Shown here one piece after another: positions 12,841 through 51,781 of a stretch of 52,942 bases of DNA. The notes beneath the pieces are model-generated. The model was not told the origin of the DNA. It did no database searches and saw nothing but the letters and a program-made list of their open reading frames with translations. The position numbers were made by a program, and so were the translations under genes. Numbering within the stretch: position 1 is the first letter of the stretch; the number at the start of each line of letters is the position of its first letter. This DNA is from Bacteroidales bacterium (GTDB lineage: Bacteria; Bacteroidota; Bacteroidia; Bacteroidales; UBA12077). Location of the stretch: the NCBI GenBank assembly GCA_019038645.1, contig JAHOYT010000058.1, positions 1-52,942 of the forward strand, written 5' to 3'.

Positions 12841-13617
12841 TTAAAGAATACCAGGAATAATAGCACGTCTTTCAACCGGATAGTCCGGAAATTGTTTTTT
12901 ATACCATCTGTGATGATCAATGGCTCTTGGAATCAAATTGATAAATGTCCAGGTAAAAAATGCTAAGGCAGGAAGACTCCAGACTAATAATGCAAATCCA
13001 ACCCACTCAATAATTTCTCCAAAAAAATTCGGGCATGAAATAAATCTGAATAATCCGCCATAAGGTATCTGATACCCGTTCGCGCTACTTTTTCTAAGGT
13101 TTATTAGTATTTTATCATGATATTTATTTATGATAAATCCTGTAATAAATAGTATGAATCCAATAATAAACCTTATGTCGAAAAGCCAATCGATAGTATA
13201 TGATGCAAAATTACCCAGCCAATATCCGTTAATAAATCCATTAACAAAATTAAAAATGAATGCGAAGAGCATTATCAACACAGGCATTTTTTTATTTTTA
13301 GTTTTAATCCTAAACGGGAAAATTAATGAGCGATGAATATAATGTAGAACCCATAGTAAGAATACTACAATTACAACTATATTATTCATTTCTTTAGCTC
13401 TTAATACCATATAAGCGAAAACTGCTAAAGCAGGAAACTCCATAACTACCCATCCTAACCTATTCCTGATCATTGGCCCCCAGTTGTTTTTTGAGTGACG
13501 TCCGTAGGGAGCTGTAATAAAAAGTACTATTGGAAAAATTAAAACTGCAATTCCTATCCAGATAAAAACAAGAACATTAAAATTATCTATCGTTATCATA
13601 TTAATTGATTGTTCCAT
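12841..13617 (-). CDS. Steroid 5-alpha-reductase family (3-oxo-5-alpha-steroid 4-dehydrogenase-like) membrane enzyme
   Basis: The 258-aa polytopic membrane protein has the C-terminal signature of the SRD5A family: NGYQIPYGGLFRFISCPNF, GEIIEWVGFAL, FINLIPRAIDHHRWYKKQF and RRAIIP closely follow the vertebrate type 1 enzyme, and the length (259 aa there) is the same. These enzymes reduce a carbon-carbon double bond conjugated to a ketone using NADPH. As last gene of the minus-strand operon, with a 17-bp overlap with the 3beta-HSD-like SDR, it may reduce an enone in a lipid or polyene intermediate rather than a steroid; that substrate is inference. Confidence 0.9.
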   Translation of the reverse strand: MEQSINMITIDNFNVLVFIWIGIAVLIFPIVLFITAPYGRHSKNNWGPMIRNRLGWVVMEFPALAVFAYMVLRAKEMNNIVVIVVFLLWVLHYIHRSLIFPFRIKTKNKKMPVLIMLFAFIFNFVNGFINGYWLGNFASYTIDWLFDIRFIIGFILFITGFIINKYHDKILINLRKSSANGYQIPYGGLFRFISCPNFFGEIIEWVGFALLVWSLPALAFFTWTFINLIPRAIDHHRWYKKQFPDYPVERRAIIPGIL

Positions 13618-14581
13618 TTTGTTTATACCATGTAAATGTATCTCTTAAGGTCTCTTCAAGCGGGCGGCTCTTAAAATCAAGCACTTGTGTAGCTTTCGAA
13701 TTCGATATGAGCTTATTTGAATTCTTTAAAATATCTAACGATTCACTTGTGTATAAGGGGTGCTCTTTCATAATAATAGAGTATAACCTAATGAAAGGCA
13801 GTCCTATTTTTGCTAAAAATAAAGGAGCCAGTAATCCGGGAGTTTTGTGCTTACTTATTTTTCCAATCAATGCTGAAAGCTCTTTTAGACTCAAATAATG
13901 ACCGGAAAGTATAAATTTTTCACTGCTGTTCCCTTTAGTTATAGCTTCTATTGAAGCATTTACAATATCTCTCACATCAACCCAGTCGTATCCTCCAGGA
14001 ACAAGCACAGGTAGTTTATTTTGATATATTTTTATTAAAGCCTGTCCCAGATATGAACCTTTAAAATCATTAGGACCAATTACAGCAGTAGGATTTAGAA
14101 CTACAGCATTCAACCCTTTTTGAGCTGCTTTGATTACTAACTTCTCGCTATCTGCTTTTGATTGTTCGTAAATCAGTTTAGTATTACCAATAAATGCTCT
14201 ATTTTCATCTAATACTTCATCTAAAGGGTGAGGATCAAGAGTGTGTATACTACTAAAATGAATAAACCTTTTAATTTTTCTTTTTATACAAATGTCAATA
14301 ATGTTTTGTGTACCACCAACATTGGTATTATATACAACATCTTTATTATTTTTATCAATAGCAATTCTTGCAGCCAGGTGAAATACTACATCCGTATCAG
14401 TACAAAGTTTATCTAAAGAATTTTTATCTGTTAAATCCCCTTTAACTAATTCCAGGTCCAGGTTTTTTAAACTATTATCAAAATTATGAACTAATGCTTT
14501 AATCGTAGCGCCCCTTTTTATTAGTTCACGAATAAGGCAGTTTCCAATATGGCCGCTCCCTCCTGTAATGGCTATTTTCAT
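13601..14581 (-). CDS. NAD-dependent epimerase/dehydratase, 3beta-HSD / dihydroflavonol-reductase-like SDR
   Basis: The 326-aa extended short-chain dehydrogenase has the TGGSGHIG nucleotide-binding loop (6-13), a HLAA motif (68-71) and the catalytic Y138-x3-K142 pair with Ser110/111 upstream. The GGYDWVDVRDIVNA segment at about 198-211 is typical of the dihydroflavonol reductase/3beta-HSD branch. It would interconvert a hydroxyl and a keto group. It is encoded directly before, and overlaps, the steroid-reductase-like gene, which makes a two-step oxidation/enone-reduction pair plausible. No signal peptide, so cytoplasmic face. Confidence 0.88.
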   Translation of the reverse strand: MKIAITGGSGHIGNCLIRELIKRGATIKALVHNFDNSLKNLDLELVKGDLTDKNSLDKLCTDTDVVFHLAARIAIDKNNKDVVYNTNVGGTQNIIDICIKRKIKRFIHFSSIHTLDPHPLDEVLDENRAFIGNTKLIYEQSKADSEKLVIKAAQKGLNAVVLNPTAVIGPNDFKGSYLGQALIKIYQNKLPVLVPGGYDWVDVRDIVNASIEAITKGNSSEKFILSGHYLSLKELSALIGKISKHKTPGLLAPLFLAKIGLPFIRLYSIIMKEHPLYTSESLDILKNSNKLISNSKATQVLDFKSRPLEETLRDTFTWYKQNGTIN

Positions 14582-14604
14582 ATTTTTGATCTTTCATAAT
14601 GTTA

Positions 14605-15501
14605 TTATTTATAAATTGAATTTATTTTATAATCTCCATTTATAAAACGTGCTATTTTTTTCAGATCCTTCCCTGCGCCGCACTCATAAATTTCATTTAC
14701 ATTATTTTCAATCAATTTTTGCATTGTTTTATACCAATTAATCTTCCTTGTTAAATTTAAAACCAACTCTTTCTTTATTTCTGATGCTTCTATTATTTCT
14801 CTCTGATCAAAGGTTGATATTACCGGACACACAGGATCTTTTATTTGTAACTCATTCACAAAGGTGCTGAATGTTTCTTCATATTTTAATAAATATTTGG
14901 AATGATAAGGTGTATTCACAATCAACTCGGCAGCCGATAAAGCGCCCTCATCTCTGGCATTTAACAATAATTTTTGAATATCATTCTTTTCGCCTGCAAC
15001 AACTATAGAATGCTTATTATTTATATTAATAATTTCTGTTTCGAACCTGCTTTTGTTAATCAGACTTTCAATATCATCGATTGATAAACCAATAATTGCT
15101 CCCATTCCGTATTTGCCTGAAACTCTTAGTTTGTTTACCAGATCATATGCAGACTTTATTATTTTTACTCCATCGGTAAGAGTAATTGCTTTTGCAGAAT
15201 ACAATGCAGCATATAAGCCCATACTATATCCGGCAAAAAAATGAGTTGGAATATTTCTCTTTTCAAGAGTGTCACTAATTGTACAACTAAATAAATATGC
15301 AATTATCTGTGAAAGAAGCTCATTATTTTTATACTTATCGTATTCATATGAAAAATCAGGAAGGTCAAAACCAATTACATTAGAGGCTTTAGTCAGATAA
15401 TCTGCAAAATCAATCTTATTTTCATTCAGAAAATCTAATTCCTTTCCGGTATAATCGGTAATAAATGCAGGAAAAATAAATGCTGTTTTATTAATCATCA
15501 T
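14605..15501 (-). CDS. FabD-like acyltransferase lacking the malonyl-binding Arg
   Basis: This 298-aa protein has the fold of malonyl-CoA:ACP transacylases. The nucleophile is S93 in GYSMG, and H200 in NTPYHSKYL matches the catalytic His. Gapless alignment by eye with E. coli FabD (S92, R117) places Ala118 where the carboxylate-binding Arg should be, and the Glu after the nucleophile motif (GHSLGE in FabD) is Leu. The N-terminal GQGSQ loop is replaced by FPAFITDYTG. It therefore probably moves or hydrolyses a monocarboxylic acyl group on one of the two ACPs of this operon. It overlaps the PPTase gene by 11 bp. Confidence 0.83.
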   Translation of the reverse strand: MMINKTAFIFPAFITDYTGKELDFLNENKIDFADYLTKASNVIGFDLPDFSYEYDKYKNNELLSQIIAYLFSCTISDTLEKRNIPTHFFAGYSMGLYAALYSAKAITLTDGVKIIKSAYDLVNKLRVSGKYGMGAIIGLSIDDIESLINKSRFETEIININNKHSIVVAGEKNDIQKLLLNARDEGALSAAELIVNTPYHSKYLLKYEETFSTFVNELQIKDPVCPVISTFDQREIIEASEIKKELVLNLTRKINWYKTMQKLIENNVNEIYECGAGKDLKKIARFINGDYKINSIYK

Positions 15502-15874
15502 TGTTCTGTTTTATTAATAAAACCTTAAAAACTGCGTAATTTTCTTTTAGCTTGATATCCGCTTTAATATCAGTTATTTTCAGATCACTAAAAATATTGT
15601 CAATTTTTTTTGATGTGTATATCTTAAAACCATTTTGTCCGTTAAAAATAATTTCAACATCCATGAAATCTACTTCCGTATTGTTAAGAGCCTTATAAAA
15701 AGCCTCTTTAAAACAAAAGCCTTTTAAAAAGGCTTCTTTTCCGAAAACGGAAAAATTTTCAATTTCTTTCGACGTAAAAAGATCATAAACTAAATCCGAC
15801 AACCTTCCTTTCTCAAAGTAGTGCTTATCGAAACGATCAATTTCTTCAATATCGATACCACAACCAAAAATCAT
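15491..15874 (-). CDS. AcpS-type 4'-phosphopantetheinyl transferase
   Basis: The 127-aa protein is a small holo-ACP synthase-type enzyme. It has the N-terminal GCGIDIEEIDRF motif with the metal-binding Asp8 and the conserved FKEAFYKAL motif at about 55-63 carrying the Glu ligand. It would load the phosphopantetheine arm from CoA on the Ser of ACPs, most likely those of this cluster. It lies 10 bp after an ACP gene and overlaps the FabD-like gene. A dedicated PPTase suggests that the cluster's ACPs are not served by the housekeeping enzyme. Confidence 0.88.
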   Translation of the reverse strand: MIFGCGIDIEEIDRFDKHYFEKGRLSDLVYDLFTSKEIENFSVFGKEAFLKGFCFKEAFYKALNNTEVDFMDVEIIFNGQNGFKIYTSKKIDNIFSDLKITDIKADIKLKENYAVFKVLLIKQNNDD

Positions 15875-15884
15875 TGGTTTAGTT

Positions 15885-16187
15885 TTACAAATCTAAAATA
15901 GTATTCTCGTGTTCAATTATAAGCAATTGCATATCAATTAATTCACCAATAGTTTGCACAGGATTTTTAACTGCATATTTGCCTATCGTCTTTAATTCAA
16001 TATTTAAATTATATTTCTTTTTAAAGATTTCTATTAGTTCCAGAAACATTAAAGAATCACCATCTAAATCACTAATAATATTTGAATCATCAGATATTTC
16101 ATCAAGTTCTATCTCGCATTCTTCAGCAAAAAAATCAAGCACTATCTCTCTTACTTCATCCTTGGTTTTATCAGTAATTTGGGCCAT
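15885..16187 (-). CDS. Acyl carrier protein (DGDSL type)
   Basis: The 100-aa protein is an ACP-like four-helix carrier with the modification site Ser in DLDGDSLMFLELIEIF (Ser at about residue 45). It is acidic and somewhat longer than housekeeping ACP, with an N-terminal extension and a hydrophobic C-terminus. It lies between a 125-aa unknown (9 bp) and the AcpS-type PPTase (10 bp), so it is probably the carrier for the intermediate handled by the FabD-like and other enzymes of the minus-strand operon. Confidence 0.87.
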   Translation of the reverse strand: MAQITDKTKDEVREIVLDFFAEECEIELDEISDDSNIISDLDGDSLMFLELIEIFKKKYNLNIELKTIGKYAVKNPVQTIGELIDMQLLIIEHENTILDL

Positions 16188-16196: not shown

Positions 16197-16574
16197 TTAT
16201 TCTGTTATTAAATTATCAACATCTTCTTTAGTCATTTGTTCCCATTTTGGGTTAGCAAATTTATCATTTAATATTTCAAATTGCACTTTATAAAACGATT
16301 CCTGATTAAATGATAGTTTTGTTTTCTTATCAGGAGTATGTTCAATGTAAACTAATTGATTAACATCAATCTTATATTTATCACAAAGTTCTTTTGCAAG
16401 ATTGGTATTCCATTCTGTAATAGATGTTCCCGGATTATCATCAAATAAATCTGTTGCAATAATTATGGATTTATCCTGTTTCATTACAATCTTCAAACCA
16501 CAAATTGATGGAACATCCCATAATCCGTTAAAGTTATATACCTCATCCTGATATTTACTCGCGTTAGCTTCCAT
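16197..16574 (-). CDS. Unknown cluster protein, 125 aa
   Basis: I do not recognise a family. The 125-aa sequence is soluble, without signal peptide or membrane segment. It has Asp/Asn-rich turns (ATDLFDDNPGTSITEWN at about 55-71) and an alternating beta-strand pattern (LKIVMKQDKSIIIATDLF; LVYIEHTPDKKTKLSF). It lies 12 bp after a B12-type radical SAM gene and 9 bp before an ACP gene, so it is probably an accessory of one of these. The strand pattern could suit a small binding or chaperone protein, but nothing proves it. Confidence 0.6.
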   Translation of the reverse strand: MEANASKYQDEVYNFNGLWDVPSICGLKIVMKQDKSIIIATDLFDDNPGTSITEWNTNLAKELCDKYKIDVNQLVYIEHTPDKKTKLSFNQESFYKVQFEILNDKFANPKWEQMTKEDVDNLITE

Positions 16575-16586: not shown

Positions 16587-17861
16587 TTAAGCGATTTTAG
16601 GTTTTACATTTTTACCAAAACTTGTTTTTGATAAATCTGGTCTGCGTTTTCTGAATGTACCATCGTCCATCTCACGCGAAACCACTTTTTTCAGAAGTTT
16701 AAACATTTTTTCTTCCTGAGTTTCGTCCTTATAAAATGTATCCCAGGCATACTGATACAATTCCTGTAATCTTTCCGGACTCATGTGTTTCGGTTGATAC
16801 ACAACCTGACCAGCATTATAGTCATCCCAATTTTTATTAAAAATACGATCTTGTTTTATTAAATCGTTATAAGCTTTAGTATGCGGGAATGGCGCTAATA
16901 CAGTAAATTCAGCGAGATCAAGATCTATTTCTAATAAGAAATCAATTAGTCGTTTTATATCATCTTCGGTCTGATTATCAAGACCTAACAAAATAGTGCC
17001 TTCAACACCAATACCATAATCATGATATTGTTTTACTCTCCTTTTTATATAATCCGAAGTATCAAATACTGCCTGGTAAACATACCATGCACCCGCCTGA
17101 GCTGCCAAATCAAGAACTTCGGGTTTATCTTCAATAGTATGGCTACACCATTTCTTTTTCAACGGAATCATTTCTCTGAATAAATCCTTTTCCCATTGTG
17201 TATCCTGAGCAAGCGAATTGTCTACAATAAAAAGCCTGTTATTGTCAATTGTTTCTAATTCCTCAATTGATCTATCGATTGGTCTTGGACGAAATTGTCT
17301 GCCTCCCAGATAAGAAACTGCACATGGATAACAGCTGTATTTACACCCTCGTGAAGCATGGAAAAGGTCAAGCATTTGTACTCCCTTGTGATAATATAAG
17401 TCTCTATTATAAAGCTCACGACGCGCAGGACCAACAATCTCAATTGGAGGTAAATCGTTCATGTGATTGTAAACTTTTTTCAGCTGACCGTTTCTGAAAT
17501 CCTTAAAAACCTGTTCCATATGTCCTTCTGCTTCTCCAAGAAAAACAGCATCTGCATGTAACATAGTTTCTTCAGCATGTAACATTGTGGAAATACCACC
17601 AAAAATAACTTTTTTACCACGTTTTCTATACTCATCTGCAATTGCCCAACCCCGTTTAATTTGTGTGGTTAACAGCATCGATATACCAACAAATTCAACA
17701 TCATCGTCGAATCGCATTTCTTCAAGATTCTCATCTATAAATTCAACTTCTACATAATCAGGTATTGTTGCTGCAAAAACCACTGCACCATGCGGTGGCA
17801 GGTTAAAAGTTGTTTGCCCCTCAAGCTTTCTCCACTTTGGAAATATTAATTGAAATTTCAT
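16587..17861 (-). CDS. B12-binding-domain radical SAM protein
   Basis: The 424-aa protein has an N-terminal cobalamin-binding-like Rossmann domain (about 1-140; FVGISMLLTTQIKRGW, KVIFGGIS) and a radical SAM core with C173-KYS-C177-YP-C180 that binds the [4Fe-4S] cluster. The C-terminal region (VLAPFPHTKAYNDL) resembles the B12-type methyltransferase/cyclase group. It would make a difficult C-methylation or rearrangement on an ACP-bound or free intermediate of the minus-strand operon. It lies 55 bp downstream of the sulfotransferase gene. Confidence 0.88.
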   Translation of the reverse strand: MKFQLIFPKWRKLEGQTTFNLPPHGAVVFAATIPDYVEVEFIDENLEEMRFDDDVEFVGISMLLTTQIKRGWAIADEYRKRGKKVIFGGISTMLHAEETMLHADAVFLGEAEGHMEQVFKDFRNGQLKKVYNHMNDLPPIEIVGPARRELYNRDLYYHKGVQMLDLFHASRGCKYSCYPCAVSYLGGRQFRPRPIDRSIEELETIDNNRLFIVDNSLAQDTQWEKDLFREMIPLKKKWCSHTIEDKPEVLDLAAQAGAWYVYQAVFDTSDYIKRRVKQYHDYGIGVEGTILLGLDNQTEDDIKRLIDFLLEIDLDLAEFTVLAPFPHTKAYNDLIKQDRIFNKNWDDYNAGQVVYQPKHMSPERLQELYQYAWDTFYKDETQEEKMFKLLKKVVSREMDDGTFRKRRPDLSKTSFGKNVKPKIA

Positions 17862-17916: not shown

Positions 17917-19005
17917 CTAATCCAAACTATAATTTTTCTCTGTCATCCATGATTTCAGGATGTTATTGATTTCCAGCTTATCGCCTTCCGGCATCATATA
18001 TTTATTTTTTTGGTATCCTTTTAGCGATATTAAAAATTCATTAATTTGTTTCTCAAATCCTTCTGAAACCTGAACATTAAAATGCCTGTAAATTGATTTG
18101 ATTTCCTGTACAGGATTTTTTTCTAAATCCTCAAATTTTATTTCAAAATATCTGTCTTTGGATAAGACATTTAAATCTATATCAACTTTTTCCAACATTC
18201 GTAATAACAAATCGCTTGTGTCCTTTATATTCGGTTTTACCCATTTTCTGTTCATAGCATTTTGTGTACCAACTATATCCCACATTTTTATTGTTGAAGG
18301 AACAACTTTGTGCGGATGCCTAATAATATGAATGTACCTTGCATTTGGAAAGATTTCGTTTAAAACATTAATCCGAAAAGAATGAAACGGGTTTTTTACA
18401 AGAATTGTTTTGTTATTCTCAAGTGTTAATTTCTTATAAAAATATTTTACAGCCTCTTTCCACTCTGTAAGTTTTTTTCCTTCAGGTAAAAATCCCGCAA
18501 ACTGATTTAAAAAATATTCATTTGATTTTGGGAAAATTATACGTTCAAGCGGCGAATAATTGCTTAAACGAAAAAGCGCATACTCATCTTCCAATGGTTC
18601 ATCCATGCTGAGCTTTACCTGATCCATCGGTCGTGTTCCCCTAAGAGCACGTCCCATAATTGGTTCATAGGATTTTCTGGATGTCAGGAAGCTATCCGGT
18701 ATTGATCCCTGAAATACATTTGAAGTTACCAGATTAGAATCTAATGCTAATAATTGATGCAAAAAAGTGCTGCCGGTTCTCCAGTGCCCTATTATTATGA
18801 TAGGATCGTCAGGTAATTTATGAGTCTTAATTTTCTGGTCATAGAGTGACTTCTCTTTTCTGTGAAATATTGAAGCCCATATGCCGTTTTGAAGAAGAAA
18901 TAGAAATCTCACCAGATATTTCGGATACAATGACATTCCGTTTTTCATAATAAGTTTTATGAACCTGGATAGTCGCATCCCTGCTATCAGGTAAGCACTT
19001 TTCAT
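17917..19005 (-). CDS. PAPS-dependent sulfotransferase family protein
   Basis: The 362-aa product has the 5'-phosphosulfate binding loop GHWRTGST (73-80), a 3'-phosphate-type motif in RYIHIIRHPHKVVPS, and the conserved DEPLEDEYAL and KNPFHSFR blocks of bacterial Sulfotransfer_3-type enzymes. It would transfer sulfate from PAPS to a hydroxyl group. Lying between an ACP gene and a radical SAM gene within the operon, it probably sulfates the cluster product, for example a phenolic or sugar hydroxyl. No PAPS-making genes are in the window. Confidence 0.87.
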   Translation of the reverse strand: MKSAYLIAGMRLSRFIKLIMKNGMSLYPKYLVRFLFLLQNGIWASIFHRKEKSLYDQKIKTHKLPDDPIIIIGHWRTGSTFLHQLLALDSNLVTSNVFQGSIPDSFLTSRKSYEPIMGRALRGTRPMDQVKLSMDEPLEDEYALFRLSNYSPLERIIFPKSNEYFLNQFAGFLPEGKKLTEWKEAVKYFYKKLTLENNKTILVKNPFHSFRINVLNEIFPNARYIHIIRHPHKVVPSTIKMWDIVGTQNAMNRKWVKPNIKDTSDLLLRMLEKVDIDLNVLSKDRYFEIKFEDLEKNPVQEIKSIYRHFNVQVSEGFEKQINEFLISLKGYQKNKYMMPEGDKLEINNILKSWMTEKNYSLD

Positions 19006-19047: not shown

Positions 19048-19323
19048 TTATACGGATTTACTTTGGATAAAATCTGCAATTGAATTTACATCTTTTAAAA
19101 CTTCACGAGCAAGATTCTGATCATCAATACGTACTTTAAAATCTCTCTGAATAGCCATTACAAGTTCTATTGCATCAATTGAATCCAGACCTAAAGTATT
19201 ATCGCCTCCAAAAAGTAGTAAATCATCTTCTATATCCTCTGGTGTAATATCCTGCATATTCAATGTTTCAATAATCATCTTTTTAATATCTGCCTTCAGA
19301 TCAGTGCCAACATTTTCTCCCAT
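19048..19323 (-). CDS. Acyl carrier protein (GLDSID type)
   Basis: The 91-aa protein is a carrier with the modification site Ser in NTLGLDSIDAIELVMAI (Ser at about residue 46) and the usual four-helix spacing. It closely resembles the ACP at 33643-33897 (both GLDSIDA). It is encoded 12 bp after the BtrH-like gene. In butirosin biosynthesis BtrH takes an acyl group from an ACP, so this ACP is the natural candidate donor for the adjacent BtrH-like enzyme. Confidence 0.9.
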   Translation of the reverse strand: MGENVGTDLKADIKKMIIETLNMQDITPEDIEDDLLLFGGDNTLGLDSIDAIELVMAIQRDFKVRIDDQNLAREVLKDVNSIADFIQSKSV

Positions 19324-19335: not shown

Positions 19336-20349
19336 TTAAATATTACTAACTACTGTTTTTAATTCGGTATAAAAAGCCTCTTCAGCATCGGCTCTTTCGT
19401 TAATCATTTGACCCAATTCCTCAAGTTTTTCAGGACCAAGATCTCTATTTTTTCCAATTTTGGCTGCAAAGTAAGAAATATTTCTCCAACCATCTCCAAT
19501 TTCCATCATCTTTTTTGACATATCGTCCAATTCTATGTTATTAAGAATCTCCGATGCCTGACGAAGGAATGTTGCATATAAAAATCTGAAGCCACCACCT
19601 CCTGTTCCCTGATCTTCAAGAAATACATTAATTTTCATAACTTCATGTGACAAATGATCAATATCTCTTGTCAATTTTGGCCATCCCAGAAGTTTTTTTG
19701 CAAAAGTTCGTATTCCTCTTACACCTATGAACGGAGGTTGAACTCCAATCATATTATTGATTGTATTTTTAACTGAGAGAGGTATTAATTTTTCATAATC
19801 AATTTTCTTAGGAACTGACTCAATGTAATACATAAAACCTTTAGGAGCTAAATAACCTCCTGCAAAACGGGCTTTTCTCAGATTATCTTTATGAATACGT
19901 GCAATTTTTGGATAATAACTATCACTTAACAGATACTCATCTCCCTCTTTTCCAATAACAGTAATAAAATGAATATTAGCATGAACTCTCTCCCATTGTG
20001 GAATATAATCCATATAATAAAAATCAACCTGACATGCAACGGGAATACCTTCTCCAATAAGTCTGTCCAGTTCTAATTCTGCGTTATTCTGATCTCTAAA
20101 ACGTTGTATCTTAAATTTAATATCTGTTCTTTTAGCAATCTTTTTTCTTAGTTTTCCTGGTTTTGTTCTTAAAATGAACATTGGGAAATTTAAATTCGGA
20201 GTCCGGCTTAAATAACCAAAATACAAACCACTTCCCAAACCAAAAATCATTGGTTCAGTAATTTCAAGACCTTTATGTTTTAGTAATGCTGTCAATGAGC
20301 CAGACTCACAATGAGCTGCCATATTGTGTTTAAAAGATTCTATTATCAT
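19336..20349 (-). CDS. BtrH-like acyltransferase (BtrH N-terminal domain + DUF4872-type C-terminus)
   Basis: The 337-aa protein resembles BtrH, which in butirosin biosynthesis transfers an acyl group from an ACP to an amine. Its N-terminal papain/C39-like domain has the HCESG motif (C14), H127 in NIHFITV and D143 in LLSDSY, a plausible Cys-His-Asp triad. The C-terminal half contains the GGGGFRFLYATFLRQ segment shared with the second copy at 28182. It probably moves the acyl chain of the adjacent ACP to an unknown acceptor. It overlaps the HTH-like gene by 4 bp (ATGA). Confidence 0.87.
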   Translation of the reverse strand: MIIESFKHNMAAHCESGSLTALLKHKGLEITEPMIFGLGSGLYFGYLSRTPNLNFPMFILRTKPGKLRKKIAKRTDIKFKIQRFRDQNNAELELDRLIGEGIPVACQVDFYYMDYIPQWERVHANIHFITVIGKEGDEYLLSDSYYPKIARIHKDNLRKARFAGGYLAPKGFMYYIESVPKKIDYEKLIPLSVKNTINNMIGVQPPFIGVRGIRTFAKKLLGWPKLTRDIDHLSHEVMKINVFLEDQGTGGGGFRFLYATFLRQASEILNNIELDDMSKKMMEIGDGWRNISYFAAKIGKNRDLGPEKLEELGQMINERADAEEAFYTELKTVVSNI

Positions 20350-44066: not shown

Positions 44067-45557
44067 ATGCAAAAATACGATGTTGTAATAATAGGTAGCG
44101 GATTGGGCGGTTTACTTTGCGGAAACATTCTTAGCAATGAGGGAAAAAACATCTGTATTCTTGAAAAGCAATTTCAGTTTGGTGGAAATCTTCAAACTTT
44201 TAAGCGTGACGGAAAAATATTTGATACAGGAATCCATTATGTTGGCGGATTATCTCCCGGACAAAACTTACATCAATACTTTAAATATTTTGGAATAATT
44301 GATAAACTCAAACTACGTAAATTAGACGAAAATGCATTTGACAAAATCAATTTTGAAGGTAAAAACTATTCTTATGCTCAGGGATTTGATCATTTTGTAG
44401 AAGCACTTGCAAATGATTTTCCTTCAGAAAAAAATGCTTTAAAAGAATACAAATCGAAGATTAAAGAGATTTGCAGTCATTTTCCTTTATACAATTTAAG
44501 GCCAAATTTAGGATTGGATAAAGAGAAACAATTTTACGAAATAAGTGTTGGAGATTTTATTAAATCAATTACTCCAAATAAAACTCTGCAAAATATTTTA
44601 GCCGGAAATAATCTGCTTTATGCCGGAACCCCAAATAAAACACCTGTTGCAATTCACGCTTTAATCACAAATTCATTAATAGAAAGTGCATATCGATTTG
44701 AAGATGGAAGCCATCAGATTGCCGATTTATTAGTCGAATCCATTAAAAATAATGGAGGAACATTAATGAATAACAGCGAAGTTAAAAAGCTGGAATTAAA
44801 CAATGGTAAAGCAGAGTCTGTTATTTTAAGTAATGGAGAAGTTATCGAAGCAGATCATTTTATTTCAGCTATTCATCCTGCACTTACACTGGAAATGACT
44901 GACACAAAATTATTGCGAAAATCCTATCGTACACGAATAAGTGACTTGGAAGAAAGCATTTCTGTATTTTCTATATATTTTTCACTCAAACCTGGTAGTT
45001 TTAAGTATTTAAATTATAACTATTATCATTTTAACGAAGATACCGTTTGGAGCATACCTAAATACAATCCGGAAAAGTGGCCACAGGAATATTTATTTTT
45101 AACACCTCCATCGAGTAAGTCAAAGGAGTTTGCCGAAACTGCTACTGCAATGACTTACATGAAATATGACGAAGTTAAGCAATGGGAGAATTCTGATAAA
45201 GGAAAACGCGGTAATGATTACGAGGAATTCAAAAAATATAAAGCTGAAAAATTGATCAGTCAAATTGAAATACAATTTCCTGGGTTTAAAGCAAGTATTA
45301 ATAAATACTATACTTCTTCCCCACTCTCTTTGAAAGATTATACAGGAACCCGAAATGGTTCTATGTATGGAATTGTGCACGATTGCAACAATCCGTTAAA
45401 AACTCAAATATATCCAAAAACTAAGATTCCTAATTTATTGTTAAGCGGGCAAAATATTAATTTCCATGGTGTTTTAGGAGTTACAGTTGCTTCAGTTTTT
45501 ACATGTACCGAAATGTTAGGAATGGAATATTTACTTGAAAAAATTAATAATGCATAG
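44067..45557 (+). CDS. Phytoene-desaturase-like FAD oxidoreductase (1)
   Basis: The 496-aa flavoprotein has an N-terminal FAD-binding motif VIIGSGLGGLLCG followed by the acidic ILEKQ end of the second strand and GGNLQTF, and a C-terminal LLSGQNINFHGVLGVTVAS FAD-closure motif. It belongs to the CrtI/carotenoid isomerase (CrtISO, retinol saturase) group, which desaturates, isomerises or saturates conjugated chains. It could act on the polyene. It overlaps the C45 gene by 8 bp. Confidence 0.9.
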   Translation: MQKYDVVIIGSGLGGLLCGNILSNEGKNICILEKQFQFGGNLQTFKRDGKIFDTGIHYVGGLSPGQNLHQYFKYFGIIDKLKLRKLDENAFDKINFEGKNYSYAQGFDHFVEALANDFPSEKNALKEYKSKIKEICSHFPLYNLRPNLGLDKEKQFYEISVGDFIKSITPNKTLQNILAGNNLLYAGTPNKTPVAIHALITNSLIESAYRFEDGSHQIADLLVESIKNNGGTLMNNSEVKKLELNNGKAESVILSNGEVIEADHFISAIHPALTLEMTDTKLLRKSYRTRISDLEESISVFSIYFSLKPGSFKYLNYNYYHFNEDTVWSIPKYNPEKWPQEYLFLTPPSSKSKEFAETATAMTYMKYDEVKQWENSDKGKRGNDYEEFKKYKAEKLISQIEIQFPGFKASINKYYTSSPLSLKDYTGTRNGSMYGIVHDCNNPLKTQIYPKTKIPNLLLSGQNINFHGVLGVTVASVFTCTEMLGMEYLLEKINNA

Positions 45558-47235
45558 ATTAAAAAAAATATTAACAGCTTTACTTAAAGTCTTAATCATT
45601 TTGGTTGTTATTATATTGGTTTTAGTAGTTATTTTCAAAATCACAAGCAAACTTAATCCCCCGGAAATAAATAATCTGCAAATAGAAAATCTGCAAAGAA
45701 CTACAGTTGATTCTAATTTTTATTCCATCAATGATAACTGGTTACAAAAGAACGAGCATGGATTGTGGGAAATGTATGTAGCAGGCAAAGCTTACGAACG
45801 TGGAGTTATAAATGGAAAGCTTACCAAAGAACTCATTTACAAACAGGAAAATGCTTTTGTAAATCAGATAAAAGTGATGATTCCATCTGATTCCTATTTG
45901 AAATTTTTGAAAAGCTTTGTTGCTTTTTTTAACCGTAATATTGATAAACACATAATAAAAGAATATCAGGAAGAAATATATGGTATTTCTCATTCTGCTT
46001 CAGATCAATTTAACTTTATTGCTCCTAATTATCCTCGTATTTTAAACTACCACGCGGCTCACGATATTGGTCATGCTTTACAAAATATGAACTTAGTTGC
46101 ATGTACTGCTTTTTCTGGTTGGGATTCCAATTCTGAAGATAGTTCTTTAATTATTGGTCGCAACTTCGACTTCTATGTTGGAGATGAATTTGCCGAAGAT
46201 AAAATTGTTATGTTTTGTAATCCCCAAAAAGGATATAAGTTTATGATTGTAACCTGGGGTGGAATGATTGGTGCAACTTCCGGTATGAACGATCAGGGAT
46301 TAACTGTTACTTTAAATGCTGCCAAATCAGATATTCCGTTTAGTGCAGCAACTCCAATTTCACTTGTGGCAAGAGAAATATTGCAATACGCAACGACCAT
46401 TGAAGAAGCTTTTGAAATTGCTAAAAAACGAAAAACTTTTGTTTCAGAATCACTTTTTATCGGATCAGCAAAAGATGGAAAAACATCAATCATAGAAAAA
46501 TCACCGGAATATCAGGTGCTATTTGAAACCGACAATGATTATATTATTTGCAGCAATCATTTCCAGAGCAATGAAATGCAAAAGCCTGAAATTATAAATG
46601 CCAGACCATGCGAATATGCTACAACATACAGGTTTAAAAGAGTTGAGGAACTATTAAATCAAAATCCTAAGTTAAATATTAAATCAGTTACCAAAATATT
46701 ACGTGATCAGAAAGGCCTGAAAAATGAAAATATCGGAATGGGAAATGAAAAAGCTGTAAATCAACTTATAGCTCACCATTCGATTATTTTTAAACCCGAA
46801 GAATTAAAGGTTTGGATTTCAATATCACCTTTTCAGTTAGGCGAATTTATTTGTTATGATTTAAATAAAGTATTTGCTGAGGCCGATAACATTAAGGAAT
46901 CTAAAACGATTTATGAAAATAATTTAACTATTCCAGCCGATTCATTTCTGTACTCAAATGATTATAAAAACTTTGTTCGGTTTAAAAACATAAGAAATCA
47001 GATACAGGCTGCAGTAAAGAATGACATAAGAATTCCTGATGAAGCTTTTATTTTTAACGAAATAATTGCATTGAACAGGGAATTCTTTGAAACTTTCGTT
47101 TACATTGGTGATTATTTTAATCATTTTAAAATAACCGACCAAGCAGTTTTAGCATACAAAAAAGCGTTAACAAAAGAAATTCCTAACATTTATCAAAGGG
47201 AAAATATACAGGAAAAGATAAAAGAATTGGAATAA
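45550..47235 (+). CDS. C45-type Ntn hydrolase/acyltransferase with N-terminal membrane anchor
   Basis: The 561-aa protein has an N-terminal membrane helix (about 10-31) followed by an extracytoplasmic domain and a C45/acyl-CoA:6-APA-acyltransferase-like Ntn core. C185 in NLVACTAFSG is the likely autoprocessing nucleophile, followed by IIGRNFDFY and GMIGATSGMNDQGLTV, typical of the family. It would hydrolyse or form an amide bond in the periplasm. The start ATG 45550 overlaps the flavoprotein stop; an in-frame TTG at 45535 would add five residues but is less likely. It lies between two related flavoprotein genes. Confidence 0.85.
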   Translation: MHRLKKILTALLKVLIILVVIILVLVVIFKITSKLNPPEINNLQIENLQRTTVDSNFYSINDNWLQKNEHGLWEMYVAGKAYERGVINGKLTKELIYKQENAFVNQIKVMIPSDSYLKFLKSFVAFFNRNIDKHIIKEYQEEIYGISHSASDQFNFIAPNYPRILNYHAAHDIGHALQNMNLVACTAFSGWDSNSEDSSLIIGRNFDFYVGDEFAEDKIVMFCNPQKGYKFMIVTWGGMIGATSGMNDQGLTVTLNAAKSDIPFSAATPISLVAREILQYATTIEEAFEIAKKRKTFVSESLFIGSAKDGKTSIIEKSPEYQVLFETDNDYIICSNHFQSNEMQKPEIINARPCEYATTYRFKRVEELLNQNPKLNIKSVTKILRDQKGLKNENIGMGNEKAVNQLIAHHSIIFKPEELKVWISISPFQLGEFICYDLNKVFAEADNIKESKTIYENNLTIPADSFLYSNDYKNFVRFKNIRNQIQAAVKNDIRIPDEAFIFNEIIALNREFFETFVYIGDYFNHFKITDQAVLAYKKALTKEIPNIYQRENIQEKIKELE

Positions 47236-47432: not shown

Positions 47433-49097
47433 ATGATAAATAAAATACTAAATACAGAATATGACATAGCCATTATCGGCGCCGGAATAAGTGGTTTAAC
47501 AGCCGCGGCAATTGCCGGAAAGTTTGGTCTGAAATGTTGTATTCTTGAAAAAGAACCAAAGGCAGGCGGTTATTTAGCAGGTTTTAGCAAAGAAGGTTTT
47601 CATTTCGATACGGCAATTCATTGGCTTAATCAATGCAATAAAAATGAAATGGCCGGTAGAATTTTTAGTCTGATTGGTTCTGATAGTCCTAAAATAAAGA
47701 TAATGAATAAAATTCACCGGTTTAAAGGTGAAGCTTATGATTATTTACTTACCAACGATCCCGATGAACTTAAAGAAAAATTAATAACTGATTTCATACA
47801 CGAAAAAAAAGGAATTGAAAAATTCTTTAAAGCTGCTAAAAAAATTGGAGCAGGATCTTTAAAATATGCCAGTCTTTTTAGAACAGATGAAAGCATGTCT
47901 GGCTTTGAAAAAGTATTTTTCAAGCTGAAACTATTAAAATTTGTTCTTCCACTTGTAAAATATGTTTTTTATAGCGGAGAAAAAGGCGTTCCAAAAGGAT
48001 TAAATAAATTTTTTAAAGATAAAAATCTACATAAAATATATAGCTCTGAGAAAGATCTGTTATCTTGCTTATTTCCAATTGCATGGGCATATAACAATGG
48101 ATATCAAATTCCGGAAAAAGGCGGAGCAAGAGTTTTTATACAATGGCTGACACATGTAAATAAGCTGCTCAAAAATGATTTGATTTTTAATGCTGAAGTA
48201 AAAAGTCTCGAGCTTGACAATAAAACTTGTGAGAGTATTGTTTATCAGCAAAAAGGGAAAGAGTATAAAATAAAAAGTAAGTATGTAATTTCAACAAATG
48301 ATGTTGAAACATTATATACTAAAATGCTTCCTGAAAATACTGTATCACAAAAGTTTAAAAACAAACTAAATAATGCTGTATTATACAGTTCTGCATTTAC
48401 AGTTTCTATTGCCCTGGATTGCCCTGCGGAAGAATTAGGATTTAATCAGGAATTGATAAACATTAGCCAGGAAGGAATTAAAAGAGATGATCACGACAGT
48501 GGTGATCCTTCAATAAGTGATATTAGTGTTTTAGCACCATCGGCGCGGGACAAATCTCTTACTCCTGAAGGAAAAGGTTTGATTACTTTGTTAATTCCTG
48601 CTTATATTGATTATCAAAATTATTGGCAAACAGAAAAGGATGAAAACGGAAATTATATTCGGGGTGAAAAGTATAAGAAACTAAAAACAGAAACAGCTGA
48701 AACTTTGATTCAAAGAGTCGAAAAAAGATTGTCGGTTGATATAAAAAATCACACTCTGTTTTATGATATCTCAACGCCAATTACGTATTTAAGATATACC
48801 GGAAATAAAAACGGAAGTATGATGGGTGCACGACCCGGAAAAGAAAATATGCAGGCAGGAATAGCACATCATCAGACCTCAGTAAAAAATCTGATTTTGG
48901 CTGGTCACTGGTCTGATTTGGGTGGTGGTGTTCCAATCTCAGTAAAAGCAGCTATTAATTCTGTACTTCTGGTTCTTAAAAAAGAGAACAATAAATCATT
49001 TAAATTATTGGCCAATTATATGGATGGAAAAATTGATATTGATCAATTAAATAATTCTTCGCTTGTTAAAGATTATGATAATTCGTGGAAAAATTAA
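47433..49097 (+). CDS. Phytoene-desaturase-like FAD oxidoreductase (2)
   Basis: The 554-aa flavoprotein has the FAD-binding motif AIIGAGISGLTAA, ILEKEPKAGGYLAGF and a C-terminal LAGHWSDLGGGVPISVKAA motif. It is from the same CrtI/CrtISO-like group as the protein at 44067 but only distantly similar, so it is probably not a recent duplicate. It likely acts on a conjugated lipid chain (isomerisation, desaturation or saturation). It is separated from the C45 gene by a 197-bp gap with a REP-like element. Confidence 0.9.
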   Translation: MINKILNTEYDIAIIGAGISGLTAAAIAGKFGLKCCILEKEPKAGGYLAGFSKEGFHFDTAIHWLNQCNKNEMAGRIFSLIGSDSPKIKIMNKIHRFKGEAYDYLLTNDPDELKEKLITDFIHEKKGIEKFFKAAKKIGAGSLKYASLFRTDESMSGFEKVFFKLKLLKFVLPLVKYVFYSGEKGVPKGLNKFFKDKNLHKIYSSEKDLLSCLFPIAWAYNNGYQIPEKGGARVFIQWLTHVNKLLKNDLIFNAEVKSLELDNKTCESIVYQQKGKEYKIKSKYVISTNDVETLYTKMLPENTVSQKFKNKLNNAVLYSSAFTVSIALDCPAEELGFNQELINISQEGIKRDDHDSGDPSISDISVLAPSARDKSLTPEGKGLITLLIPAYIDYQNYWQTEKDENGNYIRGEKYKKLKTETAETLIQRVEKRLSVDIKNHTLFYDISTPITYLRYTGNKNGSMMGARPGKENMQAGIAHHQTSVKNLILAGHWSDLGGGVPISVKAAINSVLLVLKKENNKSFKLLANYMDGKIDIDQLNNSSLVKDYDNSWKN

Positions 49098-49339: not shown

Positions 49340-49347
49340 TATTTTTG
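49340..49347 (+). promoter_or_regulatory. -7 box for the TPR lipoprotein gene
   Basis: TATTTTTG fits TAnnTTTG, 25 bp before the ATG at 49372. It overlaps a TTG that would otherwise extend the frame, which rules out the longer start. Confidence 0.6.
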
Positions 49348-49371
49348 CCAACCTTACAAAATAATAAAAAC

Positions 49372-50247
49372 ATGAATACCTCAAAAATAATTCAAGGACT
49401 CATCATTATTCTAATATTACAATCGTGTGCAAGCACAAAACTATCAGAAGAAGGGGGAACTGCATACCGAGAGGGTAATTATGAAACTGCTTTGAATACA
49501 TATAACCAAATTATTTTGGCTCGCGAAAGTAAAGGCAAAAAAGCTAAAGCTCCGGTTTATATTGGTGCTGGAAATTCAGCTCTGGAATTAGAGCAAATTA
49601 ACAAAGCCAGAAAATATCTTGAGTCAGCAAAAGAGTTGGGATTTTCATCTCCTGAAATGTATGCATCATTGGCCAAAGTGTACAAAACAATTGATAATTT
49701 ATCTAAAGAGATAACTGCTCTGGAAACCTACCATGAAAAATATCCACAAGGGGAAAAAATAAGCTCCATCACTACCCGTTTGTTTGAAACCTATGTAGAA
49801 AGTGAAAACTGGGGTTTAGGTATCGATCTATGGCCGGAAATTGAAACACAAGCTCAATCAAATCCCGACCTGCTTGCAGGATATCTTATCATTAACAAGA
49901 ATCTGGAAAACACAACAGCCTGCGACAAGCTTGCGCAGCAAATCATAAAACTGGAAGCATCTAACATAACAGCACTGGAATATTATGCCGAAAAGTATTT
50001 CCAGTATGCAGAAAACCTTTATGTATCAGAAATGAAGGCCTATAAAAATAAAAGAACTACAAAACAATACAATAAACTTCTTAAAGCATTGAAAGAAGTA
50101 TGGCCTGCATTTAGAAAGTCGCGTGATTATTTCCTGAAATTATATAAAATTGAACCTAAAAAGGAATACGCAAAATATTTGGGTAAAATATATACCCGCT
50201 TTGACGATAAACAAAAGGCTAATTATTATAATAAAAGAGCACAATAA
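49372..50247 (+). CDS. TPR-repeat lipoprotein
   Basis: The 291-aa product starts with a lipoprotein signal (lipobox LQSC at about 16-19) and then TPR-like helical repeats (GTAYREGNYETALNTYNQI; ELEQINKARKYLESAKELG; YASLAKVYKTIDN) over the rest. It would be attached to the inner leaflet of the outer membrane, acting in protein-protein contact. It has its own promoter, so it need not belong to the polyene pathway. A DDKQKANYYNKRAQ C-terminus ends the last repeat. Confidence 0.83.
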   Translation: MNTSKIIQGLIIILILQSCASTKLSEEGGTAYREGNYETALNTYNQIILARESKGKKAKAPVYIGAGNSALELEQINKARKYLESAKELGFSSPEMYASLAKVYKTIDNLSKEITALETYHEKYPQGEKISSITTRLFETYVESENWGLGIDLWPEIETQAQSNPDLLAGYLIINKNLENTTACDKLAQQIIKLEASNITALEYYAEKYFQYAENLYVSEMKAYKNKRTTKQYNKLLKALKEVWPAFRKSRDYFLKLYKIEPKKEYAKYLGKIYTRFDDKQKANYYNKRAQ

Positions 50248-50442: not shown

Positions 50443-50450
50443 TAAATTTG
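50443..50450 (+). promoter_or_regulatory. -7 box for the ligase gene
   Basis: TAAATTTG fits TAnnTTTG exactly, 23 bp before the ATG of the adenylating enzyme. Identical to the TAL -7 box at 21164. Confidence 0.6.
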
Positions 50451-50473
50451 AGTTTTGTTAAAATTAGAAGATA

Positions 50474-51781
50474 ATGAATATATATCCGGAAGATATCGAC
50501 CTTCGATCAAAAGAAGAAATTAAAACTTACCAGGAAGAGCAATTAAGAGAGCTCTTAAAATATGTAAATAAGAACTCAAAGTTTTATTCCGATCTTTTTA
50601 AAGAGAACAATATCAATATAAACGATATCAAAACAACTGAAGATCTTCAGAAAATTCCTTTTACAACAAAAGATGATCTTTTCGAGCAGAATGATGATTT
50701 TATTTGTGTTGATCGCCAAAAAATAGTAGACTATATTACCACTTCCGGAACAATGGGCGATCCTGTTACATTTGCTATGACTGATGCTGATTTAGAACGA
50801 TTGGCGTACAACGAATATATTTCTTTTAAATGTTCAGATGGAAATCCTGACGATATTTACCAGTTAATGGTTACACTTGATCGCCGGTTTATGGCTGGTT
50901 TAGCTTACTTCTTAGGAATAAAGAAAATGGGTGCAGGAATGGTTCGTGTCGGAAATGGCATGATTGAATTACAGTGGGATACTATTCGAAGAATTAAACC
51001 AAATGCATTAATTGCAGTTCCCTCATTTATTTTAAAACTGATTGAATATGCCGAAGCTAATGGAATCGATTATAAAAACTCAAGCATTAAAAAAGCTATT
51101 TGTATTGGAGAATCATTACGAAATCCAGATTTCACACTTAATACACTCGGACAACGAATAAAAGATAAATGGGATATTAAATTGTATTCTACTTATGCCT
51201 CAACAGAAATGGGTGCTGCTTTTGCAGAGTGTGGAAATAGTATTGGCGGACATCATCGTCCTGAATTACTTATAGTTGAATTTGTAGATGAATATAACAA
51301 TCCTGTTGCTGAAGGCGAAGCCGGAGAGTTGGTTATTACAACGCTTGGTGTAGAAGGTATGCCGTTAATCCGATTTAAAACCGGCGATGTAGTTGAATAT
51401 CATACCGAAGCTTGTGAATGCGGAAGGAGCTCCATGCGTTTAGGACCAGTAATTGGCCGTAAAAACGAAATGATCAAATATAAAGGAACCACATTATATC
51501 CACCTGCATTGTATGATATTTTAAACGATATGGAATATGTAGAAAACTATATTATAGAAGTTTCTACAAACCAGATTGGTACAGATGACATTTTAATTCG
51601 TATTGCAATAAACGGAAATAAACCTGAAAATTTTGAGAAATTAATTAAAGATCATTTCAGAGCAAAATTAAGAGTTGCTCCTACCATTCAGTTCGAATCA
51701 AAAGAGGAAATTAATAAAATCAAGTTCCCTGAGTTGAAGCGCAAACCTGTTGTATTTATTGATAAAAGGAAGAAGAAATAG
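50474..51781 (+). CDS. Phenylacetate-CoA ligase-like adenylate-forming enzyme
   Basis: The 435-aa protein belongs to the PaaK-like branch of adenylating enzymes. It has the P-loop TTSGTMGDP (89-97), YSTYASTEMG, the RFKTGDVVEY core motif and a Cys-rich CECGRSS segment that may bind zinc. It activates a carboxylic acid with ATP and attaches it to CoA or an ACP. The neighbouring TAL makes 4-coumarate, so this aryl acid is a natural substrate; that is inference. It has its own promoter with the same -7 box as TAL. Confidence 0.9.
   Translation: MNIYPEDIDLRSKEEIKTYQEEQLRELLKYVNKNSKFYSDLFKENNININDIKTTEDLQKIPFTTKDDLFEQNDDFICVDRQKIVDYITTSGTMGDPVTFAMTDADLERLAYNEYISFKCSDGNPDDIYQLMVTLDRRFMAGLAYFLGIKKMGAGMVRVGNGMIELQWDTIRRIKPNALIAVPSFILKLIEYAEANGIDYKNSSIKKAICIGESLRNPDFTLNTLGQRIKDKWDIKLYSTYASTEMGAAFAECGNSIGGHHRPELLIVEFVDEYNNPVAEGEAGELVITTLGVEGMPLIRFKTGDVVEYHTEACECGRSSMRLGPVIGRKNEMIKYKGTTLYPPALYDILNDMEYVENYIIEVSTNQIGTDDILIRIAINGNKPENFEKLIKDHFRAKLRVAPTIQFESKEEINKIKFPELKRKPVVFIDKRKKK

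Follow-up and report, generated by a model that had tools for sequence, protein, structure and literature searches.

The window considered here is the whole of contig JAHOYT010000058.1 (52,942 bases; contig C21 of the genome designated G000), from the Bacteroidales bacterium assembly GCA_019038645.1, which comprises 3.39 Mb in 102 contigs and is 96.9% complete. Two divergent operons in it are interpreted as a rearranged and enlarged flexirubin-type pigment cluster employing radical SAM (S-adenosylmethionine) chemistry; the acceptor of its polyene would be a dialkylresorcinol (DAR), the product of a divergent ketosynthase III (KSIIIx), or both. This interpretation as a whole is considered somewhat probable. 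Judged by its genes, the operon on the + strand (21242-51781) is a flexirubin operon, and the cluster is of flexirubin type in the gene features examined, except for a DarA-DarB pair inside the operon, which is not required. That slot is filled by a B12-binding-domain radical SAM enzyme (25970-27328, hereafter rSAM), and a second enzyme of this kind (16587-17861, rSAM2) is encoded in the - operon. The pigment is probably a new variant of the flexirubin type.

An initial annotation had recognized two divergent operons forming one aryl-polyene/flexirubin-type cluster primed by tyrosine ammonia-lyase (TAL). This view is sustained by the divergent arrangement, which is kept in three other genomes of the genus (G003, G006, and G016) and in all ten rSAM loci spanning the junction, three of these being the assemblies of the same genomes. 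The parts named at that time are present, namely TAL, ketoreductase (KR), ketosynthase/chain-length factor (KS/CLF), two dehydratases (DH), acyl carrier proteins (ACPs), thioesterase (TE), MMPL, LolA, lipoprotein, family 2 glycosyltransferase (GT2), and PaaK-like ligase, as are two BtrH-like proteins, a C45 enzyme, a sulfotransferase, and a steroid-reductase-like protein. The B12-domain radical SAM enzymes had been missed, two of them within the stretch described (16587-17861 and 25970-27328) and a third at 10168-11508. The + operon holds the following genes, given with the model or other evidence that identifies them.

21242-22783, +, FlxA tyrosine ammonia-lyase (NF053541, 837 bits, cut-off 700)
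22789-23517, +, 3-ketoacyl reductase, FabG-like, KR (PF13561/PF00106)
23540-24763, +, ketosynthase KS1, active Cys present (Pfam, alignment)
24789-25037, +, acyl carrier protein (PF00550)
25070-25966, +, lipid-A-type acyltransferase, LPLAT (PF03279)
25970-27328, +, rSAM, B12-binding-domain radical SAM enzyme (TIGR04072, 419 bits, cut-off 360)
27307-27744, +, DH1, FabZ-like dehydratase (NF000582, 34 bits, below the cut-off of 113; synteny)
27775-28176, +, DarG-family protein, helix-turn-helix-like (NF053536, 155.9 bits, cut-off 70)
28182-29186, +, DarH, BtrH-related acyltransferase (NF053550, 465 bits, cut-off 300)
29186-31239, +, ABC exporter, ATPase and permease genes (PF00005, PF12698)
31382-31816, +, 4HBT thioesterase (PF13279)
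31832-32992, +, ketosynthase KS2, active Cys present (Pfam, alignment)
33006-33635, +, short KS-like protein without active Cys (Pfam, alignment)
33643-33897, +, acyl carrier protein (PF00550)
33926-35125, +, ketosynthase KS3, active Cys present (Pfam, alignment)
35127-36191, +, KS-like/chain-length-factor-like protein without active Cys (Pfam, alignment)
36188-36949, +, polysaccharide-deacetylase-like protein (PF01522)
36942-37700, +, LolA2 (NF053544, 220 bits, cut-off 125)
37672-38421, +, LolB2 lipoprotein (NF053540, 142 bits, cut-off 60; TTG start assigned mechanically)
38426-38800, +, DH2, dehydratase with FabA-like domain (PF07977)
38813-40033, +, glycosyltransferase 2 with DUF2062 (PF00535, PF09835)
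40039-43902, +, MMPL exporter fused to acyltransferase and methyltransferase domains (PF03176, PF01553, PF13847)
44067-45557, +, CrtI/CrtD-like FAD oxidoreductase (PF01593)
45535-47235, +, C45 autoproteolytic acyltransferase/hydrolase (NF040521, 215 bits, cut-off 85)
47433-49097, +, second CrtI-like FAD oxidoreductase (family search; missing from some genus genomes)
49345-50247, +, TPR protein (genus-wide conservation before FlxY)
50474-51781, +, FlxY, 4-coumarate-CoA-ligase-type enzyme (NF053551, 716 bits, cut-off 520)

FlxA, FlxY, a DarG-family protein, both DarH proteins, LolA2, and LolB2 all score above the NCBIfam cut-offs. The earlier description of the cluster as lacking DAR genes is contradicted by the DarG-family gene and, on contig C8 of the genome, by DarB and its DarA-like neighbor; against the stricter equivalog model flexirubin_DarG, the protein at 27775-28176 reaches 155.7 bits, below the cut-off of 170. 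The gene order was compared with that of seven genomes from elsewhere in the class or order that have FlxA and no rSAM linked to it (G045, G242, G290, G388, G422, G450, and G473). In G290 and G422 the first part of the operon runs TAL, KR, KS1, ACP, LPLAT, DarA, DarB, DH, DarG, DarH, ABC, TE, and the second part KS2, KS-like, ACP, KS3, KS-like, deacetylase, LolA, LolB, DH2, GT2, MMPL, FAD; in G290 the C45 and FlxY genes come after the FAD gene. The window reproduces this order with a sole difference, rSAM standing between LPLAT and DH1 where these genomes have DarA-DarB. A fragment of G070 (L222) shows the ACP-to-DarG stretch in the same order, DarA-DarB included. Flexirubin genes are present in G388 and G473 in another arrangement, only TAL to LPLAT stand together in G242, and the stretches examined in G045 and G450 contain neither DarA-DarB nor DarG, DarH, or ABC genes. 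DarH and C45 genes also occur within flexirubin operons that hold DarA-DarB (L184/L185, and DarH in L195 too) and are thus ordinary flexirubin parts, no substitutes, as the unusual genes of the cluster had been supposed to be. DarH2 (the second DarH) and the sulfotransferase fare differently, being on comparison of gene content real additions to the flexirubin set.

Among the characterized systems, the flexirubin clusters of Chitinophaga pinensis and Flavobacterium johnsoniae, in the portions of PMC3992019 available, share with the window the TAL FlxA, the ligase FlxY, ketosynthases, reductase, dehydratases, and thioesterases, as well as the deacetylase-like, acyltransferase, LolA, glycosyltransferase, and exporter genes; G290 and G422, which contain FlxA and DarB, share the gene order and the DarG, DarH, FAD, and C45 genes. 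The cluster of the window differs in the B12-domain rSAM in the DarA-DarB slot of G290 and G422 and in having DarA-DarB in trans, as is also the case in C. pinensis, and it adds the divergent operon with rSAM2, sulfotransferase, DarH2, ACPs, AcpS, and FabD-like protein, plus the KSIIIx operon, which probably lies just beyond the end of the window. Minor variation is found in the + operon itself. The second FAD oxidoreductase was not found between C45 and FlxY in L021 (G003) and L023 (G016). In G006 about 9 kb without window homologues, perhaps an insertion, separates LolA from LolB (L019:4060-13195) in an operon otherwise alike. A loss of the methyltransferase domain of the MMPL fusion where rSAM is present was considered, and no simple relation emerged across the clusters compared: rSAM clusters with this domain exist (L014, L055, and L067, for example), and the methyltransferase part of 40039-43902 has no match in L184, L189, L196, and L210.

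The distribution of rSAM sets the cluster apart. A class-wide sample of 395 genomes was searched together with 14 named control genomes, with thresholds of E <= 1e-200 for FlxA, 1e-140 for DarB, and 1e-110 for rSAM. rSAM is not a regular member of flexirubin gene sets, since only 3 of the 395 contain it, and in two of these it and FlxA lie on separate contigs; 63 of the 66 FlxA genomes gave no rSAM match at this threshold. In a second set of 98 relatives (20 of the genus of the window and 78 others), rSAM is matched in 26 at E <= 1e-30 and in 20 at 50% identity or more, the latter comprising 15 of the 20 genus genomes and 5 of the 78 others. These five all belong to other families of the order; in two of them (G027 and G051) TAL and rSAM lie on different contigs. 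A scan of named genomes returned at least 503 relatives, of which the best 80 loci were kept, with limited flanks. By phylum label 75 of the 80 are Bacteroidota and 5 carry another label or none; the Bacteroidota carriers are two Flammeovirga strains and otherwise metagenome-assembled genomes (MAGs), the nearest named relatives by rSAM protein being uncultured Bacteroidales MAGs. Among these best 80 of at least 503 loci, rSAM has as neighbors DH1 in 74, LPLAT in 70, ACP in 66, KS1 in 64, KR in 58, TAL in 47, and DarH in 44. None of the counted core genes lies within 10 kb on either side of rSAM in L054 and L114. On L104, a contig titled 'delta proteobacterium', 9.5 kb include a 54% identical rSAM and no further gene of the set, owing to either transfer or misbinning. 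A single clade of flexirubin-linked rSAM was not supported, the linked/unlinked label needing 10 changes against a shuffled mean of 12.4 on a tree whose backbone is largely open and whose 'unlinked' class includes short contigs (L096, L102, and L112 among them). From the best 80, 34 rSAM genomes outside the genus, most of them MAGs of unstated completeness, were selected by hand according to their operon context; TAL is visible in the examined stretch of 26.

The structure model of rSAM (mean pLDDT 90) has TsrM as the nearest solved fold (TM 0.82 by query length, E 4e-29), followed by MgmA, AprD4, OxsB, CysS, and TokK. In TsrM, a cobalamin-dependent tryptophan C2-methyltransferase, Arg69 is placed beneath the cobalamin and Glu273 prevents AdoMet from reaching the cluster, according to the parts of PMC13331322 and PMC8992657 available. 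By profile alignment Arg71 of rSAM corresponds to Arg69 of TsrM, and it is kept in all 88 readable rows of 89. The fold and this arginine are common to both enzymes; Glu273 is not kept, and the substrate is presumably another one. Modeling and alignment thus suggest that rSAM is a cobalamin-binding enzyme, most likely a C-methyltransferase. One possible target is the ring methyl position of flexirubin, since the polyene ring of the C. pinensis pigment bears a methionine-derived methyl (PMC3992019, in part). The family model exceeded by rSAM, TIGR04072, is rSAM_ladder_B12, the 'ladderane' model, and this score is one argument for a cyclization of the polyene to an aryl ladderane or other cyclobutane product. 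Another is the resemblance to the anammox lipid clusters of Rattray et al. 2009, in which the accessible text of PMC2649909 lists the B12-domain rSAM Kuste2803, phytoene-desaturase-like genes, a PaaK-like ligase, and a deacetylase-like gene. Anammox and Desulfotalea 'ladderane' clusters, as partially described, have in common with the window these gene types, a lipid-transport membrane protein, and Cys-less KS paralogues. The window differs in being TAL-primed, in LolA2, LolB2, DarG, and DarH, and in a host that is no anammox planctomycete, the comparison being one of descriptions. Moreover, rSAM-free flexirubin operons contain FAD, FlxY, and deacetylase-like genes too, and the nearest folds are those of methyltransferases (TsrM, MgmA) and of AprD4, so that cyclization is extremely improbable. 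The same genome encodes a second TIGR04072-like rSAM (G000:C5:17478-18911; L034:9479-10912; 340 bits, cut-off 360), which adjoins FtsZ, FtsA, Mur ligase, and FtsW/RodA genes, with no pigment genes among seven typed neighbors.

The discovery of darA/darB elsewhere in the genome, which the initial annotation had named as refuting its reading, has come about. Four KSIII genes were retrieved from the genome with PF08541, and one of them, G000:C8:42745-43887, is DarB (607.9 bits, cut-off 550), on another contig than the window. The earlier statement that no KSIII gene is present holds for the contig of the window, where none of either kind was found, and fails for the genome, which has DarB on C8 and KSIIIx on C66. 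A 314-residue gene without any Pfam or NCBIfam match adjoins DarB. Of 22 DarB loci, 21 have a homologue of it adjoining DarB, in three other families too (38-45% identity), and the remaining locus is a fragment at a contig end. The same pair is found inside flexirubin operons; on this synteny the 314-residue gene is taken as a candidate DarA. A 389-residue protein with two adenylate-kinase stretches also adjoins DarB on C8 (L032:8434-9603), and its homologue stands beside DarB in most loci of the genus. DarB occurs in 18 of the 20 genus genomes, in one as two fragments. G014, the sole genus genome at least 90% complete that lacks both an FlxA above the cut-off and rSAM, also lacks DarB. In the class sample FlxA was found in 66 genomes (62 over the cut-off), DarB in 62 (54 over the cut-off), and both in 56. 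Only Bacteroides ihuae among the 14 controls passes the FlxA cut-off and none passes that of DarB; B. ihuae has a DarB match below the cut-off, and FlxA-type TAL thus exists in Bacteroides too. FlxA and DarB lie on different contigs in 35 of the 56 class genomes holding both, a number to which assembly gaps contribute, and in C. pinensis darA/darB and flxA-flxY form two separate loci (PMC3992019, in the text available). The absence of DarA-DarB from the operon therefore says little.

These facts also favor an ordinary flexirubin, a DAR ester of an aryl polyene with the dar genes in trans, in which the radical SAM genes would do no more than take over known steps, ring methylation for example. 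The gene set in flexirubin order and a DarB in trans are as expected for such a pigment. It is nevertheless regarded as unlikely, since rSAM is absent from nearly all the FlxA genomes of the class (63 of 66) and lies on another contig than FlxA in two genomes besides G000. To our knowledge, no role in flexirubin formation is recorded for a sulfotransferase, a second DarH/ACP set, or a KSIIIx module.

KSIIIx was recognized in a looser KSIII search of the 34 chosen genomes, in which 19 of the 30 without DarB yielded proteins scoring 100-128 bits with the StlD/DarB model, whose cut-off is 450. Six of these proteins and that of G063 form a single family with 62-88% mutual identity, 22-24% identity to DarB, and the active Cys kept; the other 13 are assigned by score only. 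In L251, KSIIIx is accompanied by a 4HBT thioesterase, two enoyl-CoA hydratases, and a further B12-domain rSAM, and in G503, G505, and G508 a ketosynthase and a FabD-like gene are nearby. The KSIIIx module of L255 includes an 858-residue fusion of a B12-domain radical SAM enzyme with 3-hydroxyacyl-CoA dehydrogenase (3103-5679); a protein of the same length and place, with untyped domains, is found at L256:6101-8677. Among the 98 relatives KSIIIx is present in 19, namely 16 of the 20 of the genus, G051, G063, and G070, and all 19 have rSAM2. A replacement of DarB by KSIIIx, or mutual exclusion of the two, was ruled out by the 16 genus genomes and G070, which hold both. In the genome of the window KSIIIx is located on the 17-kb contig C66 (L268) with genes for KS, 3-hydroxyacyl-CoA dehydrogenase, enoyl-CoA hydratase, thioesterase, and O-methyltransferase. 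The PF08541 search had missed it, probably because the family scores low (the member in L251 reaches 20.3 bits, cut-off 26.6). The distance from the KSIIIx module to FlxY is at most 0.1 kb in G003 and G006, at most 3 kb in G007 and G017, and about 5 kb in G016. As KSIIIx is close to FlxY in these five relatives and the window ends 1.2 kb past FlxY, the contig was probably cut inside the cluster.

The - operon consists of the genes below.

20346-20846, -, DarG-like protein (NF053545, 53 bits, below the cut-off of 170)
19336-20349, -, second DarH acyltransferase, DarH2 (NF053550, 320.5 bits, cut-off 300)
19048-19323, -, acyl carrier protein (PF00550)
17917-19005, -, sulfotransferase (PF13469; weak matches to polyketide synthase sulfotransferases, 27-30 bits)
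16587-17861, -, rSAM2, second radical SAM enzyme with a B12 domain (PF02310 and PF04055, each marginally under its cut-off)
16197-16574, -, u125, small protein of no family, usually adjoining rSAM2 (synteny)
15885-16187, -, acyl carrier protein (PF00550)
15491-15874, -, AcpS-type phosphopantetheinyl transferase (PF01648)
14605-15501, -, FabD-like acyltransferase, end of the conserved - operon (PF00698; TIGR00128 below cut-off)

The rSAM2 protein is 87-92% identical in G003, G006, G016, and G019, above most of its neighbors. It is found at 68% identity or more in 23 of the 98 relatives and in 25 of the 34 chosen rSAM genomes, namely 22 of the 24 whose operon includes DarH and 3 of the remaining 10. 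Its model (pLDDT 78.5) is nearest in fold to AprD4 and shows hydrophobic residues just after strand 3. The sulfotransferase, ACP, DarH2, and DarG-like genes recur with rSAM2 in G070 (L211), and the last three in G503 (L254); u125 was not found beside rSAM2 in L208 and L025. In L025 (G009:C364), which has no TAL match, an rSAM2 homologue (59%) immediately precedes a ladder-type rSAM (33%). Homologues of the ligase, MMPL, thioesterase, KS, GT2, LPLAT, and ACP genes accompany them, and the gene content resembles that published for ladderane-type lipid clusters. The neighbors of rSAM2 in other families are FAD/C45 or FlxY/MMPL genes (L209, L210, L212, L251-L254, L257, and L261), which argues that it belongs to the pigment cluster. 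The - operon could be regarded as an unrelated neighbor, a notion compatible with an ordinary flexirubin and in line with the absence of rSAM2, sulfotransferase, and FabD-like genes from the rSAM-free flexirubin operons examined, save for rSAM2 in L210 and L211. The divergent arrangement kept in the genus and the partners of rSAM2 in other families make this highly improbable.

From the observed identity, order, and conservation of the genes, the presence of DarB and KSIIIx, and their co-occurrence, the following chemistry and transport can be inferred for the enlarged flexirubin-type cluster. FlxA would convert tyrosine into 4-coumarate, which FlxY would activate; the KS and KS-like proteins, KR, and DH enzymes would then extend the activated coumarate on ACPs to an aryl polyene. 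rSAM, and perhaps rSAM2, would perform cobalamin-type radical SAM chemistry, with C-methylation of the ring or chain as the likeliest reaction. DarH may transfer the polyene to its acceptor, either a DAR made by DarA-DarB from the separate locus and/or the product of the KSIIIx module, probably just downstream; DarH2 with its own ACPs may transfer a second acyl group. The sulfotransferase could modify a hydroxyl, yielding a pigment that is perhaps sulfated, and the ABC and MMPL exporters with LolA2 and LolB2 would carry it to the outer membrane.

Several points weigh against parts of this scheme, the least certain element of which is the acceptor: DAR, KSIIIx product, or both. The expectation that DarG and DarH in the operon predict DarA-DarB in the genome failed: at E <= 1e-100, DarB was detected in 4 of the 34 chosen rSAM genomes, 3 of these coming from the 10 whose operon has no DarH and 1 from the 24 whose operon has it. 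DarG and DarH therefore do not imply a DAR ester. That C66 adjoins the window downstream of FlxY is probable but presumed, and 4 of the 23 rSAM2 genomes among the relatives have no KSIIIx. The position of TsrM Glu273 is occupied in the 89 rSAM rows by V (80), I (6), L (2), and T (1), so that a TsrM-type polar mechanism is not implied for rSAM; the same replacement, along with the kept Arg71, leads to the expectation that rSAM binds cobalamin and is able to use AdoMet radically. For rSAM2 the hydrophobic loop after strand 3 and the AprD4 fold of the model make cobalamin use doubtful. No Rfam family, cobalamin riboswitch included, reaches the gathering score in the window. Finally, the ring methyl could come instead from the methyltransferase domain in 40039-43902.

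The scarcity of DarB outside the genus is marked. Against the 4 of 34 stand 53 of 63 rSAM-free FlxA genomes of the class (Fisher p ~2e-12, with rows non-independent by relatedness and thresholds that differ between the two sets), and in the relatives set all 15 rSAM genomes within the genus, and none of the 5 outside it, have DarB. These counts suggest that rSAM usually occurs without DarA-DarB, and that the genus of the window is an exception with both. rSAM and DarA-DarB share one gene run in L094, L102, and L050, among the best 80 of at least 503 loci. The earlier opinion that a standard flexirubin is unlikely is partly supported, a differing product being plausible given the unusual tailoring genes, and partly undermined by DarA-DarB in the genome itself. 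It had been proposed that the product is a DAR-free aryl polyene, amide- or lipid-linked and sulfated. The 30 chosen rSAM genomes without DarB, two of them Flammeovirga strains (no match at the threshold above), and the five relatives outside the genus are in accord with this proposal, and the KSIIIx module is another possible acceptor source; DarB and the DarA-like gene are present in the genome and follow the cluster within the genus, which renders a DAR-free product distinctly unlikely here, somewhat more so than an ordinary DAR ester. Among the rSAM relatives outside the genus a DAR-free product deserves serious consideration. A broader and tentative extension is a widespread, undescribed class of Bacteroidales aryl polyenes with a cobalamin-type rSAM in place of DarA-DarB and an acceptor from the KSIII/enoyl-CoA-hydratase/hydroxyacyl-dehydrogenase module, which the genus of the window might make in sulfated form, beside or joined with DAR.

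Arcuflavin/xanthomonadin and other aryl polyene (APE) clusters follow a type II aryl polyene logic like that of the window and are not known to employ TAL. Arcuflavin, as far as the source available describes it, differs in its hydroxybenzoate starter. Flexirubin-type pigments are a chemotaxonomic marker of the Bacteroidota (PMC3992019, in part). According to partially available sources, antiSMASH 'ladderane' clusters are reported in nine phyla, ladderanes being unshown outside anammox bacteria (PMC9902471); flexirubin and ladderane clusters of Chryseobacterium are published as separate clusters; and an antiSMASH table gives flexirubin in Bacteroidales and Chlorobi bins and ladderane in Brocadiaceae and OM190, so that a flexirubin call in Bacteroidales is not new. 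A literature search, with subscription papers mostly outside it, yielded no paper joining flexirubin with a sulfotransferase, none on flexirubin in anaerobic metagenome-assembled Bacteroidales, and, among the matches listed, none linking it with radical SAM. If the interpretation of an enlarged flexirubin-type cluster is true, a branch of mostly uncultured Bacteroidales employs radical SAM chemistry, and perhaps another acceptor, in making flexirubin-related pigments. The TIGR04072 rSAM inside a flexirubin-type operon offers one testable explanation for antiSMASH 'ladderane' calls outside anammox bacteria, and the two strain carriers, Flammeovirga aprica ATCC 23126 and Flammeovirga sp. SJP92, put the pigment within experimental reach.

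The GC content is 30-33% along the full length of the window, no tRNA was found in it, and sigma-70-like sites between the two operons are about as many as chance predicts (5 against 4.5). Beyond the FabD-like gene, the 5-alpha-reductase-like and short-chain dehydrogenase/reductase genes (12841-13617 and 13601-14581) were dropped as members; the steroid-reductase-like enzyme, once counted as part of the cluster, is not conserved with the operon, neither gene being beside it in G003 and G006. Further upstream two genes are possibly linked to the cluster.

10168-11508, +, third B12-domain radical SAM enzyme, possibly linked (PF02310, PF04055)
7650-10034, +, TonB-dependent-receptor-like protein, possibly linked (PF13715; PF07715 just below cut-off)

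Both are kept in G003, G007, and G016. Synteny in the genus runs further upstream (to 885 in L273), and only cross-family neighbors therefore count for 7650-11508. Homologues of the radical SAM enzyme (61-63%) stand beside the cluster in L254, L256, and L258 (G503, G505, and G508), and those of the receptor-like protein (47-53%) near rSAM2 in L208, L211, L254, and L257 (G051, G070, G503, and G508). A small protein with a desulfoferrodoxin-like domain is encoded at 11658-12032, and its homologues are located between the third radical SAM gene and the - operon in G003, G007, and G016.

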